Source: Arthrobacter gengyunqii (GTDB lineage: Bacteria > Actinomycetota > Actinomycetes > Actinomycetales > Micrococcaceae). Taken from it: a stretch of 64,000 nucleotides of DNA. Location of the stretch: assembly GCF_023022985.1 (NCBI RefSeq), contig NZ_CP095461.1, positions 744,001-808,000 of the forward strand. The letters run 5' to 3'. The notes under the pieces are model-generated. The model made no database searches and had not been told where the DNA came from. It was given only the letters and a program-made list of their open reading frames with translations. The position numbers and the translations under genes are program-made. Position 1 is the stretch's first letter, and every line of letters begins with the position of its first letter. Shown piece by piece: positions 3,031 to 10,657 of this stretch.

Positions 3031-3131
3031 CGCCAGCTTTGTGGGTGACCCACGCCCCTTTTGGGATACAGTCCTAACGTCCAGGCTCTTCACCTGCGCG
3101 CATAATGTCGCGAGACAACGATGGGGAATTG

Positions 3132-3629
3132 ATGGCAGTGCGTTTTAGGAAGTCCGACGGCGGCGGGCAGGCGGCGTCGAAAGCAGCGGTGGCAGCCCTG
3201 AAACTGGACGGGCACGTGACCTTCGAGGAATTGCTGGCCGTTGTCACCAAAGCCCACGGAAAGCCAATCGAGCTGCGGGACATTGACCATTCAGTGATTC
3301 CAGCCGTCACGGGGCTGTGGATCGAGAAGGACAAGAAGTCGATCATCCTGCTGCCCGCCGGTGACAATCGCCTGCACCGCACCCATGCTGCGTGCCACGA
3401 ATTTGGGCACATCCTCCTGCGCCACCAGGGCTGTGGCGGTGTGGAGACGTCCATGCCGTCCGTCTTCCAGCACGTTGGCAGCCGCAAGGGCATCAAGCGG
3501 ATGCTGGCCCGGTCCCTGGACTGGAACGAGACCGAGCGGGCCGCGGAACACGTTGCCTATCTGCTCTCCCTGGCGCTGCTGCCCCATGAGCGGGAAAGCC
3601 CCAGCGACTTTGAGCGGACGTTCATGTGA
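3132..3629 (+). CDS. ImmA/IrrE-like metallo-endopeptidase-type protein
   Basis: A 165-residue cytoplasmic protein with a zinc-protease HExxH motif (CHEFGHILLRH, about residues 89-99) and a downstream ERAAEHVAYLL helix that could supply the third ligand. This is the arrangement of ImmA/IrrE proteins, which cleave or antagonise HTH repressors. The start at 3132 has GGGGA six bases upstream; an in-frame ATG at 3105 has none. It overlaps the next gene by GTGA. It heads a four-gene unit with two membrane proteins and an EspR-like HTH protein. By family precedent it would act on the HTH protein, but no substrate can be read from sequence. Confidence 0.72.
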   Translation: MAVRFRKSDGGGQAASKAAVAALKLDGHVTFEELLAVVTKAHGKPIELRDIDHSVIPAVTGLWIEKDKKSIILLPAGDNRLHRTHAACHEFGHILLRHQGCGGVETSMPSVFQHVGSRKGIKRMLARSLDWNETERAAEHVAYLLSLALLPHERESPSDFERTFM

Positions 3630-4621
3630 CGTGGCTGCAGATCCTTCCGATCATCGTGCTCTGGACGATGGTCGCGATCCGGCTGCTGGGGCTCTGCTTT
3701 GGCTGGCGGCCGGGCATCCTGCCTGCCGTGTCGCTGGTGGCCCTGGGCGCAACCCTGAACATCGACCCGGTGTACCTGGCCGTTGATCAGTACCTGGGCG
3801 GTTGGAATCTGCTCAATCTGATGGTGCACCTGCTCATGGGACTGGGCATGACCGAGCTGAGCCGGCTGCTGCTGAGAGTCACCGGCCGTTCACACCACGT
3901 CAAAGTGCTGATCAGCATAGGGTCGGTGCTGGCGGTGGCACAGATTGTGCTCCTGCTTGTTTCGAACACCGAAGGATCCGCCGCCAGCTTCACGGACACC
4001 TTCGGCGACACCCCGACCGTTGCTTTGTACCAGGCCAGCTTCTTTGCCTGGTTCGGCATGATCACCGGCTATACGGGCTGGGAAACCCTGCGCCGGAACC
4101 GGCGGGGAGAATCGCGTCCCTTCCGGATCGGTTTCGACATCCTGTGTGCCGGCTGCATGGCCGGTGTCCTGGCGGCAGCCACAAAAATGATCCAGATCGG
4201 CCTGGAAATCGGAGGCGTCAATGACCGGGACAACAACGCCCTGGTCACCGGATACCATGTTCTGCTCGCCCTGATGATTGTGGGATTTGCGGTGGGCTTC
4301 ATCCTTCCGTCCTACGAACGCATTCGGCAGACCTTCCGGGCACGGACAGAATGCGCAAGGGACCTTGCAGCCTTGCGGCCCGTTATGGGTCGTCTGGTGC
4401 AGACGCCCGAAGGCCGCCGGTCCATGGGGGCCGCCAACATTGTCCTCGACGCCCGCGCGTCCAAGGCCCAGCTGTACCGCTGGTTCATCTTCATAGGCGA
4501 TATCCGGGTCCTGGACCCCGGCCTGCTGTCGCCGCAGGAAACCCGAATCATCGACGAGATAGGCACGAGAATTGAGCACAACAGTTCACCGGCGCAGCGT
4601 ACCGCTGCTCCTCGCGGCTAG
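3626..4621 (+). CDS. MAB_1171c-type multi-pass membrane protein
   Basis: A 331-residue protein with about seven hydrophobic segments in the first 235 residues, then a roughly 95-residue charged cytoplasmic tail (RALxPVMGRLVQ, YRWFIFIGDIRVL, ETRIIDEIG). This matches a family in actinobacteria called MAB_1171c putative transporters, which sit next to ImmA/IrrE-like and HTH proteins. No transport has been shown by anything visible here; a membrane sensor or anchor is equally possible. The GTG start lies inside the stop of the upstream peptidase gene, so they are coupled. The 3' end overlaps the next gene by about 50 bases. Confidence 0.65.
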   Translation: MTWLQILPIIVLWTMVAIRLLGLCFGWRPGILPAVSLVALGATLNIDPVYLAVDQYLGGWNLLNLMVHLLMGLGMTELSRLLLRVTGRSHHVKVLISIGSVLAVAQIVLLLVSNTEGSAASFTDTFGDTPTVALYQASFFAWFGMITGYTGWETLRRNRRGESRPFRIGFDILCAGCMAGVLAAATKMIQIGLEIGGVNDRDNNALVTGYHVLLALMIVGFAVGFILPSYERIRQTFRARTECARDLAALRPVMGRLVQTPEGRRSMGAANIVLDARASKAQLYRWFIFIGDIRVLDPGLLSPQETRIIDEIGTRIEHNSSPAQRTAAPRG

Positions 4622-5153
4622 CTGCTCCAAGATACTGCCGCCCGCCCTGGTCCTGACCGTCCTGGTGTTCCTGGCGGGGATCAAGGCGGGGCTGGGGCCG
4701 GCGGGAGTGATCCTGCTGGTGGCCGGCATCGTCGGTATTCCGGGAGTGATCTACAAAGGGGCCAAGCCCGTTTTCCGTCGCCGCGGCCTTCCGGACAGCT
4801 GGCGGACCAACATTGTGGCAGTCCTGATGCTTGTGGGCACGGTGATCTGCTGGATTATTCCCCTTGAGGCGCCGATCCCGCTCACCGTCGCGGCGTTGTT
4901 TCTCGGCAATGCAGGACTGGTGTTCTTCCGCCGCTGGCTCGATGTTTCAGCCCATGTGTCCGTTATTACCTTCGCAGTTTTGTGGGTTACGGCAATGTCT
5001 GGGGGAGCCTGGGCGTGGCTGTTGGTACTATCGCCGTTGATGATGTTCAGCCGGGTGGTCCTGCGCGAACACACCCGACGGGAAGCGTTGTCAGGCGCGG
5101 CATTGGGAGTGTCAACTTTCTGCTGTTATCTCGTAGCAATGACTTGGAGCTGA
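4572..5153 (+). CDS. Small integral membrane protein of unknown function
   Basis: I do not recognise a family. The 193-residue protein has five or six hydrophobic segments (about residues 18-65, 78-115, 125-165 and 172-190) joined by short Arg-rich loops. The suggested TTG start makes it overlap the previous gene by 50 bases; a later GTG may be the true start, since no strong ribosome-binding site is visible for either. It sits between the MAB_1171c-like gene and the EspR-like gene in one transcription unit, so it is probably a membrane partner of the former (inference). Confidence 0.55.
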   Translation: MSTTVHRRSVPLLLAASCSKILPPALVLTVLVFLAGIKAGLGPAGVILLVAGIVGIPGVIYKGAKPVFRRRGLPDSWRTNIVAVLMLVGTVICWIIPLEAPIPLTVAALFLGNAGLVFFRRWLDVSAHVSVITFAVLWVTAMSGGAWAWLLVLSPLMMFSRVVLREHTRREALSGAALGVSTFCCYLVAMTWS

Positions 5154-5158
5154 ACTAA

Positions 5159-5590
5159 GTGAACGATTTTGGTCTTTCCCCGGAACGAGCCGCCGGCATC
5201 CGGCGCGCCGAGACGCTCGCTCGAAAGATCAATCTCCTCTTGGATGTCATCATGTCCGACTCAGGCAAGCCGTATGACTACCAGGCCATCAGGGACGGCG
5301 CGCAGAAAGCCGGCTACTACCTTTCCCGCACCCGTTGGTCCCTGTTGAAGTCAGGCAAGGAGCAGGTTGTCCCGGACGAGGCACTGCGTGCCATTGCCGC
5401 GGTCTTCGACGTGGATCCGGAATATCTGCTGCAGGAGGGCGGAAAGCTGCCGGAGCGGGTTGAGGCCGAGCTGGAACTGCTCCGCAGCATGCGGCGTGCC
5501 GAGGTGCGCAACTTCGCCGCCCGCGCCCTGGGTCCTGTCGACCCGGAAGCACTGCGCGCCATTGCGAAAATCCTGGATGAGGACGAGTAG
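5159..5590 (+). CDS. EspR-like HTH transcriptional regulator
   Basis: A 143-residue DNA-binding protein with EspR architecture: an N-terminal helix that sets the atypical HTH (ARKINLLLDVI), the XRE-type helix-turn-helix (AQKAGYYLSRTRWSLLKSG, AIAAVFDVDPEYLL), and a C-terminal dimerisation helix pair (LRSMRRAEVRNFAARALG). EspR of mycobacteria is a nucleoid-associated activator that forms dimers of dimers. Here the gene is last in the peptidase/membrane-protein unit, six bases after the upstream stop, with GGAG before a GTG start. The nearby HExxH protein is the obvious candidate antagonist; that link is inferred. Confidence 0.7.
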   Translation: MNDFGLSPERAAGIRRAETLARKINLLLDVIMSDSGKPYDYQAIRDGAQKAGYYLSRTRWSLLKSGKEQVVPDEALRAIAAVFDVDPEYLLQEGGKLPERVEAELELLRSMRRAEVRNFAARALGPVDPEALRAIAKILDEDE

Positions 5591-5617: not shown

Positions 5618-5646
5618 TTGACCGCCCATCGACACACTGCTATGGT
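5618..5646 (+). promoter_or_regulatory. Sigma-70-like promoter TTGACC-N17-TATGGT
   Basis: The -35 is TTGACC (5618-5623) and the -10 is TATGGT (5641-5646), with an optimal 17-base spacer. The predicted start is near 5653, inside the palindrome. The promoter points to the flavoprotein gene 300 bases downstream, but a strong hairpin at 5836 lies between. Confidence 0.6.
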
Positions 5647-5690
5647 TTCAATCATGTTTCACACATGTGTGAAACATGATTGAAACCATA
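5641..5690. repeat. Perfect 50-bp palindrome overlapping a promoter -10
   Basis: Every base of 5641-5665 pairs with 5690-5666, with no spacer. Nested inside are smaller palindromes centred on ACATGT (GTTTCACACATGTGTGAAAC). The left edge coincides with the -10 hexamer, so a bound dimer or tetramer would block transcription. The likely role is an operator for an unidentified repressor; a cruciform or an RNA hairpin are alternatives. Confidence 0.7.
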
Positions 5691-5835
5691 AGGCTGCAGG
5701 TTGGAGACGGTGGTTGACTGGGGGGTCACCTCCGTCTCCGCCTGTGCTTATGAGCGGTATATCCGAGCTGCAGGGCTCGGTGGACCACTGATTGTGGAAC
5801 ATCCGCTGCCTGTGGGGGGTCAGCGTGACGTGAAT

Positions 5836-5867
5836 GCGAAGCCAGCGAATTTTTCCGCTGGCTTCGC
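5836..5867 (+). terminator. 12-bp hairpin in the leader upstream of the flavoprotein gene
   Basis: GCGAAGCCAGCG (5836-5847) pairs perfectly with CGCTGGCTTCGC (5856-5867) around an eight-base loop that contains five T. No U-run follows, so termination is uncertain. If it terminates, the promoter at 5618 would make a short RNA of about 215 nt. Confidence 0.45.
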
Positions 5868-5954
5868 TGCGTTTGGGGCGGGTGTGGAACCGGGGGTGCC
5901 CGCGGTGGCAGCCCCGCGTGGTCGTCGTCGGCCGTTGTAGGTAGAATTCATAAA

Positions 5955-8066
5955 GTGAAACTCAATTCCTTTTCCCATCTGATGGCACCGGGCACCATCG
6001 GTCCGATGGAAGCCCACAACCGCATCGTTCTGCCCGCCATGGACATGAACGTCTCCGAGCACGGCGAGATCGAACAGACCGAGATCGACCACTACGTGGC
6101 ACGTGCCGCCGGCGGCGCGGGCCTGATCATCACCGGCGCCTGCGCCATTGCGTTCCCGCACGGCGCAGCTTCCATGAAGGAACCGGGCCTCTCCGATGAC
6201 AAGTTCATTCCAGGTCTGAAGGCGCTGGCCGATGCCGTCCACGCCGCCGGCAGCAAGCTGTGCATCCAGTCCACGCACCACGGCAAGGTAGCCCGCGTGG
6301 ACGTCGCCAACGACCGTCCGGTGCTGGCCCCGAACCAGCCGGACTACAGCTATGACATGTCCGCCCTGGCCGACAGCACCCCGACCGAACTTGGCAAGAT
6401 GGGCGCGGCCACCGCCGGCAAGCAGGTCACCTACCGCGAGATGACCGCTGAGGACATTTCCTGGCTGGTCTCCACCTGGGCCGATGCCGCCGAACGCATC
6501 GCCAAGGCCGGAGCCGACGCGATCGAGATCCACGCCGCCCACGGCTACATCCTCGGCGTGTTCCTGAACCAGCGGGACAACAAGCGCACCGACGAATACG
6601 GCGGCTCGCTGGCCAACCGCGCCCGTCTGGCGTGTGAAGTCATCAGCGCGGTGAAGGAACGGGTCGGCGACAAGCTGGCCATCCTGGTCCGTGTTGCCGG
6701 TGAGGAATACGGGCAGGAGGGCGGACTGACCCTGCCCGAGGCCGTTGAAGCCTCCAAGCTGTTTGAGCAGGCCGGCGCGGATGCCATCCACGTCACCGGC
6801 TGGGGCCGGAACCCGTTCGACAACTTCACCGACGGCCCGCTGCCCAGCAAGGTCGGCGCCTACCTGGACAACGCCGCGGAGATCAAGAAGCACGTCAAGG
6901 TGCCGGTCATCGCCGTCGGCCGGATGCTGCCGAAGGTTGCCGAGAAGGCGCTGGCAGCCGGGCAGATCGACTTCGCCGCCATGGGACGCCAGCTGCTGGC
7001 CGATCCGGAGCTGCCGAACAAGATCCGGGACGGCAAATTCGACCAGGTCCGCCCCTGCATCAACTGCTACCTGTGCGTCGCGGAGAACTTCTTCGACGAC
7101 ACCCCCTTCTGTGCGGTCAATCCGGCCCTCGGCAACGAGGCCCTGCTTCCGCTGAAGCCCGCCTCGATGACCAAGCACGTCGTCGTCGTCGGCGCCGGTC
7201 CCGCGGGGATGGAAACCGCACGGGTGCTGACCGAACGCGGCCACCGTGTCACCATCGTGGACAAGGCCGACCGGCTGGGCGGCACCATGTGGTTCTCCAC
7301 CATGACGACGCCGGACAACGAACGCCTGCTGCGCTGGTTCAAATCCGAGATCAAGCGGCTCAACATTGCTGTCAAGCTGAACACCCCGGCAACCGTTGAG
7401 ACCATCCGTGAACTGCACCCGGACCATGTCATTGTGGCAACCGGCGCCGTCCGCCCCAAGCCTGACTTCCCGGGCGGCGATCTGCCGAATGTGCAGACCG
7501 GCGACACGCTGCGCGCGATGATGCTCGGCACGGCAACGGCGGAGGAAGCGGGTGCGGTGCTCAGTACGCTCGGCAAGCTCGGCCGCCTTTCCGGCGTGAC
7601 CAAGAGCCCCGAGTTTGTCCGCCAGTTCACCAAGTTCTGGCTCCCCATGGGCAAGGACGTTGTGGTCATCGGCGGGTCCTTGGTGGGCCTGGAGCTGGCC
7701 GAGTTCCTCGCCGAGCGCGGCCGCAGCGTGACCCTGCTGCACGAGAAGCAGCAGCTTGGGCTGCCGCTGGCCATGCCGCGCCGCTGGACCGCGGTGAAGG
7801 ATTCCAAGGACCACGGCGTGCGGATCCACCGCAACGTGAAGATCACGCGCATCACGGAGAAGGCCGTGGAGTGGACCGAGGGGGAGCAGAGCTTCACCGC
7901 ACCCGCCTCCATGGTGGTTTACGCGGACGGCACGACGTCGGCTGCCCCGCTCGCGGACGAGCTGCGCGCGGCGGGCATCAGCTGCGACGTCGTTGGCGAC
8001 GCCGGTGCCGTGAACTACATCCACGGCGCCATCCATTCCTCGTGGAAGGTCAGCACCGAGCTTTAG
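5955..8066 (+). CDS. NADH:flavin oxidoreductase / 2,4-dienoyl-CoA reductase-type FMN-FeS-FAD enzyme
   Basis: A 703-residue cytoplasmic redox enzyme with the full domain order of FadH-type reductases. The N-terminal FMN TIM barrel is at residues 1-350 (HAAHGYILGVFLNQRDN, RVAGEEY). The iron-sulfur cysteines are 368, 371, 374 and 386 (C-x2-C-x2-C-x11-C; FadH-like proteins usually have C-x2-C-x3-C). An FAD-binding Rossmann motif is VVVGAGPAGMETARV, and an NAD(P) site is VVVIGGSLVGLELAEFL. The substrate could be an enoyl-CoA or another alpha,beta-unsaturated compound; trimethylamine-dehydrogenase relatives share the layout. The GTG start follows TAGAAT by seven bases, suggesting a leaderless transcript. 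A terminator at 8083 follows the gene. Confidence 0.8.
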   Translation: MKLNSFSHLMAPGTIGPMEAHNRIVLPAMDMNVSEHGEIEQTEIDHYVARAAGGAGLIITGACAIAFPHGAASMKEPGLSDDKFIPGLKALADAVHAAGSKLCIQSTHHGKVARVDVANDRPVLAPNQPDYSYDMSALADSTPTELGKMGAATAGKQVTYREMTAEDISWLVSTWADAAERIAKAGADAIEIHAAHGYILGVFLNQRDNKRTDEYGGSLANRARLACEVISAVKERVGDKLAILVRVAGEEYGQEGGLTLPEAVEASKLFEQAGADAIHVTGWGRNPFDNFTDGPLPSKVGAYLDNAAEIKKHVKVPVIAVGRMLPKVAEKALAAGQIDFAAMGRQLLADPELPNKIRDGKFDQVRPCINCYLCVAENFFDDTPFCAVNPALGNEALLPLKPASMTKHVVVVGAGPAGMETARVLTERGHRVTIVDKADRLGGTMWFSTMTTPDNERLLRWFKSEIKRLNIAVKLNTPATVETIRELHPDHVIVATGAVRPKPDFPGGDLPNVQTGDTLRAMMLGTATAEEAGAVLSTLGKLGRLSGVTKSPEFVRQFTKFWLPMGKDVVVIGGSLVGLELAEFLAERGRSVTLLHEKQQLGLPLAMPRRWTAVKDSKDHGVRIHRNVKITRITEKAVEWTEGEQSFTAPASMVVYADGTTSAAPLADELRAAGISCDVVGDAGAVNYIHGAIHSSWKVSTEL

Positions 8067-10613: not shown

Positions 10614-10657
10614 TTTGGGAAATCCCTGCCACTGCGGAACGGCAGGGATTTCCCAAA
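10614..10657. terminator. Bidirectional terminator, 17-bp perfect stem
   Basis: Positions 10614-10630 pair perfectly with 10641-10657 around a 10-base loop. A smaller hairpin CCAAATC/GATTTGG (10581-10599) precedes it, and GTGGAGG/CCTCCAC (10658-10677) follows over the end of the minus-strand gene. It lies between two convergent genes, so it can serve both. Confidence 0.8.

Follow-up and report, generated by a model that had tools for sequence, protein, structure and literature searches.

The operon, the palindrome and the promoter

The window, by which we mean the whole 64-kb stretch of DNA that was analysed (G000:C1:744001-808000), came from the single-contig genome of Arthrobacter gengyunqii (G000, 3.69 Mb). 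Between positions 3105 and 5590, four genes overlapped or nearly abutted each other (Table 1), and we read this arrangement as one operon that is closed by a regulator gene directly before a long palindrome. The product of the first gene scored 12.7 bits against Pfam PF06114, under the cut-off of 22, and 20.3 bits (E 7.5e-5) against the PADLOC capP model; a sequence search for a related solved structure found none. The second product did not reach the curated cut-off of 100 for NF042915, nor did the ptsH-linked protein (29.1 bits). Both assignments were thus resemblances, with scores under the curated cut-offs.

Table 1. Features of the locus, with their positions in the window.
Feature	Position	Strand	Basis or detail
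ImmA/IrrE-like (M78) metallopeptidase candidate, first gene of the operon	3105..3629	+	HEFGH motif read from the sequence
MAB_1171c-like multi-pass membrane protein	3626..4621	+	NCBIfam NF042915, 58.6 bits, E 5.3e-16
Second small membrane protein	4572..5153	+	ORF; longest frame overlaps the preceding gene; family matches all sub-threshold
EspR-like XRE-type regulator, candidate repressor	5159..5590	+	phmmer, AlphaFold, Foldseek
Promoter TTGACC-N17-TATGGT	5618..5646	+	TTGACC 5618-5623, spacer 17 nt, TATGGT 5641-5646
Palindrome, candidate operator	5641..5690	.	50/50 self-complementary, zero spacer, 25/25 pairs
Half-sites	GTTTCA 5645-5650, GTTTCA 5656-5661; TGAAAC 5670-5675, TGAAAC 5681-5686		sequence
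Predicted stand-alone small RNA, ~215 nt	5653..5870	+	fold and conservation
5' G-run hairpin	5703..5739	+	GGGGGG 5720-5725; equivalent in 14/18 same-genus loci
Conserved 3' module, model R1	5798..5873	+	83.2 bits; in 18/18 loci
Parts of the 3' module	5804-5825; 5836-5867	+	GUGGGGGG hairpin; terminator-like hairpin
Flavoprotein gene, possible leaderless-type start signal of its own	5942..5957	+	TAGAAT, 7 nt, GTG

The regulator was a protein of 143 aa with no match in Pfam or NCBIfam at the default threshold. Its residues 16-128 aligned with EspR in phmmer, where the chains 4ndw, 3r1f, 3qf3 and 3qwg gave E values from 6.5e-4 (the best) to 1.1e-3. The AlphaFold model had a mean pLDDT of 84.8, and its top 15 Foldseek matches were all EspR chains, at a TMq of 0.46-0.56 that indicated a loose global fit. 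An HTH and a C-terminal helical region could both be aligned to EspR, which places the protein in the EspR-like group, and the similarity was modest.

It had previously been noted from the sequence that a 50-bp perfect palindrome sits on the -10 element of a strong promoter. Recomputation confirmed that 5641-5690 was self-complementary throughout and spacer-free, and that TATGGT formed its left edge. The two hexamers of the promoter stood within the 16-18 nt spacing of a sigma-70-type promoter. As DNA the palindrome read GTTTCAATCAT GTTTCACACAT GTGTGAAACAT GATTGAAAC, with two half-sites spaced 11 bp on each side of the dyad, so that the four half-sites made two 11-bp direct pairs placed face to face. 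This spacing, though suggestive only, would fit a candidate operator for a dimer-of-dimers binder.

The next longest perfect palindrome in the window was 22 bp, and by our own arithmetic, which assumed ~65% GC, the chance of a perfect arm of 25 pairs was ~1e-14 per position. The core TCACACATGTGTGA occurred only once in the 3.69-Mb genome when at most one mismatch was allowed. The earlier note had asked whether the palindrome could be a fold-back artefact of the assembly. This was unlikely because the flanks were unique on both sides and the element recurred, diverged, in 17 other same-genus copies. Among all these copies only that of the window was perfect, while the remaining 17 matched at 10-22 of the 25 pairs. 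A once imperfect palindrome may recently have been corrected by template switching, which would account for the perfection. Since the symmetry was not conserved across loci, it seems that selection acts on the half-sites rather than on perfect symmetry. The microRNA hits on the palindrome in Rfam (E up to 10) appear to be fortuitous, as could be expected of a perfect hairpin.

Distribution and variation of the candidate operator

We found the core TCACACATGTGTGA, with at most one mismatch, in 17 of the 29 genomes of the genus, which were exactly those with an orthologue of the regulator (at least 89% identity; 18 loci in the 17 genomes), and in none of the 12 others. The palindrome-locus RNA followed the same pattern, so that regulator, core and RNA either co-occurred or were all missing. 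Aligning the intergenic region in relatives, as had been proposed for the palindrome, therefore gave an element that was kept and diverged in 17 genomes, and a locus that was absent from 12. There was one core per regulator locus. A single extra copy with one mismatch, the only one among the 29 genomes, was located at G004:C5:184424-184437.

All 18 loci had the same order, namely the stop codon of the regulator gene, the core CACATGTGTG, and the G-hairpin and terminator module. TTGAC at the identical 17-nt spacing from the -10 was additionally present in 16 of them, the -35 being diverged in G026 and G023b. Loci sharing both the operator and its flanks included those of A. zhaoxinii, A. citreus, A. 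koreensis and A. gandavensis. For two more distant regulators (L121 and L122, 75-78% identical) no such site was found within 10.4 kb, and beside paralogous regulators of 47-54% identity (L049-L058) no comparable palindrome was found. In a plasmid locus (L206, AP024663.1, 3420-3460) the gene of an EspR-like paralogue had a separate palindrome behind it, TTGAAACATG-N8-CATGTTTCAA, which hints that a half-site may be shared within the EspR-like family.

The palindromes of the 18 loci were compared in a gap-free alignment anchored on the core. Paired bases filled 79.0% of the cells, and both sides had changed in 10 of the 25 pairs. The covariation score was 0.194, in comparison to 0.109 (sd 0.013) for shuffled alignments, of which none of 500 reached the observed value; when the partners were slid by 1-3 columns, the score was at most 0.116. 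Such paired changes would also fit an RNA stem. The outer half-sites provided further information on this point. On the left, the outer TCA was in register in 17 of the 18 loci (the exception was G026). On the right, 11 loci had it in register and three (G019, G020 and G021) had it displaced by a single base; G027, G028, G023a and G023b lacked it. Similarly, in six distant downstream sites (L106, L108, L110, L112, L118 and L205) the left outer half-site was missing and the right one kept in every case, and the downstream site of the plasmid locus L204 had the left outer half-site and lacked the right one. Losses on one side only are more in keeping with DNA half-sites than with an RNA stem.

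Moreover, six distant loci (L108, L110, L112, L118 and the plasmids L204 and L205) had a related site also at the start of the operon, immediately ahead of the gene that encodes the HEFGH motif. In these operon-start sites the left outer half-site was missing in all six and the right one was kept in five. Sites at both operon ends were thus also present on a plasmid of Paenarthrobacter ureafaciens (L204, NZ_CP101183.1) and on p232, a conjugative plasmid of Arthrobacter sp. Rue61a (L205, NC_018532.1), where HEFGH was encoded ~300 nt past the operon-start site. Because related sites flank its operon in these six loci, the EspR-like protein is the likely binder of the palindrome. The window's own operon was not preceded by any match to TCANNCATGNNTGA, and autoregulation was therefore not suggested there. 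Thus, the four half-sites, the co-occurrence of core and regulator, and the sites at the other end of the operon all support the earlier proposal of a double operator.

The predicted RNA and its sister copy at ptsH

The 218 nt from the predicted start to the hairpin had a folding energy of -113 kcal/mol (z -8.4), to which an arm of the palindrome contributed; the 3' part alone (5788-5870) had a z of -4.2. Across the loci, the predicted RNAs were 122 to 312 nt long. The 12-bp hairpin that had been reported to end at 5867 was found with arms 5836-5847 and 5856-5867. It was followed only by short T stretches (CTGCGTTT in the window) and was conserved with paired changes. In an alignment of 28 RNA copies, 8 of the 20 predicted pairs showed one double change or more. 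Of the distant sites, those of L108, L110, L118 and L205 had a visible G-run hairpin behind them, and none was found behind those of L106 and L112; our models did not recognise the RNA above noise in L106, L108, L110, L112 and L118.

A known identity for the transcript was rejected since no Rfam family matched at its own cut-off: with E up to 10 all matches were under the curated values, such as Ms_IGR-8 (19.9 of 44 bits) and Scr2736 (16.2 bits against a gathering cut-off of 43). A description of this small RNA was not found in the openly accessible literature either, and the small RNA with G-run hairpins is apparently undescribed.

The 3' module of 78 nt was present at a second site in all 29 genomes of the genus, before a convergent ptsH gene (R1, at least 76.7 bits), whereas R1 had a palindrome-locus copy in 17 genomes (18 loci). 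In G000 this sister copy was located at C1:124331-124408 (L002:1510-1587, L124), between a pair of genes for an HTH-type regulator and a membrane protein and the convergent ptsH. Of the two upstream genes, one encoded an HTH-like protein of 243 aa and the other a protein of 244 aa that matched MAB_1171c weakly. In all 29 genomes the HPr motif of ptsH was on the opposite strand, 324-405 nt past the hairpin, and the motif of the upstream regulator was found in 24 of 29 within the stretch examined. No gene follows the sister copy on the same strand, so that a free small RNA is its best reading, and this reading extends to the RNA predicted in the window. Thus, one genome had two distinct regulator/membrane-protein pairs, each beside a copy of the same RNA.

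Another genus of the family (g32) had a matching gene order and hairpin, with an entirely different terminator. Both the regulator and the HPr motifs were present in all six g32 loci that matched our search expression; three further loci were read for the hairpin alone. The terminator-like hairpin of g32 (L093-L096, L101 and L104) had a conserved tip, GTCCATTAGAACGGGTGGAC in most copies.

The rows of our alignments were 18 palindrome-locus and 10 of the 29 ptsH-locus copies (A1), 20 ptsH-locus copies (A2) and 19 of 33 listed hairpins (A5), and the models R1, R2 and R3 recovered their own training rows by construction. With E at most 0.01, R1 matched in 67 of 245 family genomes. Thirteen non-genus R1 loci were read, and the convincing ones were all from g32 and had the hairpin (L093-L096, L101, L104). 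R2 matched 8 of 396 genomes of the order, belonging to two genera, and R3 matched 13 of 396 genomes of the phylum, namely our own, 10 of genus g144 and 2 weakly. From its Scr2736 matches, g144 was taken to be Streptomyces. On these results, a wide class of GUGGGGGG hairpins was rejected.

The Rfam family Scr2736 (RF02831) was detected in 41 of 394 genomes of the class and had no match in our own genome. Its similarity to the RNA described here was in the layout of the hairpin: 5 bp, 3 further pairs, the loop GUGGG and one bulged base. The Scr2736 loci (L153-L182) had GUGGGGGG loop hairpins with covarying stems, several loci having two. When 19 hairpins chosen from both groups were anchored on the loop, 94.7% of the cells were standard pairs and 30 cells were double-changed. 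On the other hand, R2, which was trained without Streptomyces, scored no higher than 13.1 bits there (E at least 1.7); in the 11 of 30 Scr2736 loci tried it matched at the RNA in 5, none above noise. Additionally, no such operon adjoined in the three loci whose frames were listed (L153, L177, L182). The resemblance may consist of a shared motif that is possibly convergent. The 6C RNA (RF01066) is likewise a small actinobacterial RNA with homopolymer runs in its hairpins, but the runs here are of G, not C. There was no match to 6C above the gathering cut-off in our own genome, and a 6C RNA or an anti-6C sponge was rejected on this ground.

A wider picture can be put forward only tentatively. 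The Micrococcaceae might carry an undescribed class of G-run-loop RNAs, a mirror image of 6C, each serving as the dedicated output of a switch that consists of a membrane protein and an XRE repressor. One copy would be core and ptsH-linked, and the other would belong to an ImmA-type module that also occurs on plasmids. Scr2736 of Streptomyces would then serve the same kind of function, and the GUGGGGGG loop would be a seed or a protein-binding site that they have in common.

Proposed switch, alternatives and related systems

With a probability of roughly three in four, we propose that the palindrome is a cooperative multi-half-site operator of the upstream EspR-like regulator, that it silences a small RNA of ~215 nt ending at the 5867 hairpin, that the peptidase and the membrane proteins release the repressor, and that the RNA acts in trans. 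Judging by the comparative evidence, the bound regulator would cover the -10 and the start site and so keep the RNA silent. The genes present in the operon, and analogy, suggest that the membrane proteins and the ImmA/IrrE-like peptidase most likely sense a signal and release the repressor, upon which the RNA would be made. Given the conservation of the loops, it would presumably act in trans through its exposed G-run hairpins, either on C-rich RNA or through a protein. A search of four genomes for the candidate target GACCCCCCACR gave 9 matches, 5 in the RNA genes themselves and 4 elsewhere, in comparison to 11 for the backward control. One match in our own genome (L151) was looked at, and none of the matches was proposed as a target.

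Alternatively, the transcript might serve the flavoprotein gene as a 5' leader or attenuator, with the 5867 hairpin as a conditional terminator. This gene is on the same strand, its GTG at 5955 is 87 nt from the hairpin, and it followed the RNA in 5 of the 18 loci (the window, G024, G023a, G003 and G022). However, in A. zhaoxinii (L107) a different gene on the opposite strand lay behind the RNA, and further loci had other sequence there, yet the module was kept; the gene behind the sister RNA was convergent as well. The TAGAAT string that had been pointed out seven bases before the GTG was indeed at 5942-5947, and an identical TAGAAT-7-GTG preceded the same gene in G024 and G023a, which makes a leaderless start of its own plausible and further speaks against a leader. 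We therefore regard this reading as unlikely. Elsewhere in the window, a near-perfect 44-nt inverted repeat past the FMN_dh gene (10614-10657) was probably a terminator. It is still less probable, indeed by a wide measure improbable, that the product is a leaderless micro-peptide that begins at ATG 5654, seven bases past the -10 (a 9-codon frame, 5654-5683). A start codon was present in all 18 loci (17 ATG and 1 GTG) and the 9-codon frame in 11, but frame lengths varied from 9 to 60 codons, and the start and stop codons both lie within half-site sequence, which means that the constraint on the operator alone can explain them.

Two other readings concern the palindrome itself. The operator might be read by another regulator, such as that of the ptsH-linked module, since similar TTTCAT and TGTG elements occurred ahead of the ptsH-linked RNA. 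This is quite unlikely given that only the 17 genomes that have the EspR-like gene had the core, while the motif of the ptsH-linked regulator was also found in 9 of the 12 others, and that in distant loci the EspR-like operon had a site at either end. The chance is slightly smaller again that the palindrome is no DNA operator and instead forms a 5' stem that stabilises or regulates the transcript. An 11-bp stem would open the RNA at the predicted start, and the paired changes suit it too. On the other hand, the outer left half-site precedes that start, the outer half-sites were kept or lost on one side, and the operon-start sites of the six distant loci were built alike.

The double operator and the stand-alone RNA that had been proposed from the sequence thus appear to be the best-supported readings, the latter since the 3' module was conserved, the following gene varied and the sister copy faced a convergent gene. 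What this analysis adds is a likely repressor, sites on either side of its operon, relatives carried by plasmids, and a conserved RNA whose sister copy belongs to the core genome. Both the switch and the role of the G-run loops become testable in Arthrobacter strains, which are easily grown.

The regulator was similar in sequence and fold to EspR of Mycobacterium. EspR is reported to bind cooperatively as a dimer of dimers, with a preference for TTTGC[TC][GA], and to occupy two motifs in inverted orientation at its own promoter (PMC3315491). In comparison to these TTTGC-type motifs, the half-sites here were of the type TTTCA, and in distant loci there was also a site at the regulator's own operon. 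Moreover, EspR is described as a nucleoid-associated protein with hundreds of sites, whereas the core of the window's candidate operator occurred once in the genome.

ImmA-ImmR, IrrE-DdrO and CapP-CapH are modules in which a protease relieves repression by an XRE-type repressor, and such repressors are known to govern mobile elements as well as genes for DNA repair and defence. The operon described here similarly combined genes for a metallopeptidase-like and an HTH protein. It differed from these modules in that two membrane proteins were encoded between them, and any cleavage of its repressor is putative. Instead of a set of genes of the above kinds, the apparent output of this proposed XRE/peptidase-type switch was a conserved small RNA.
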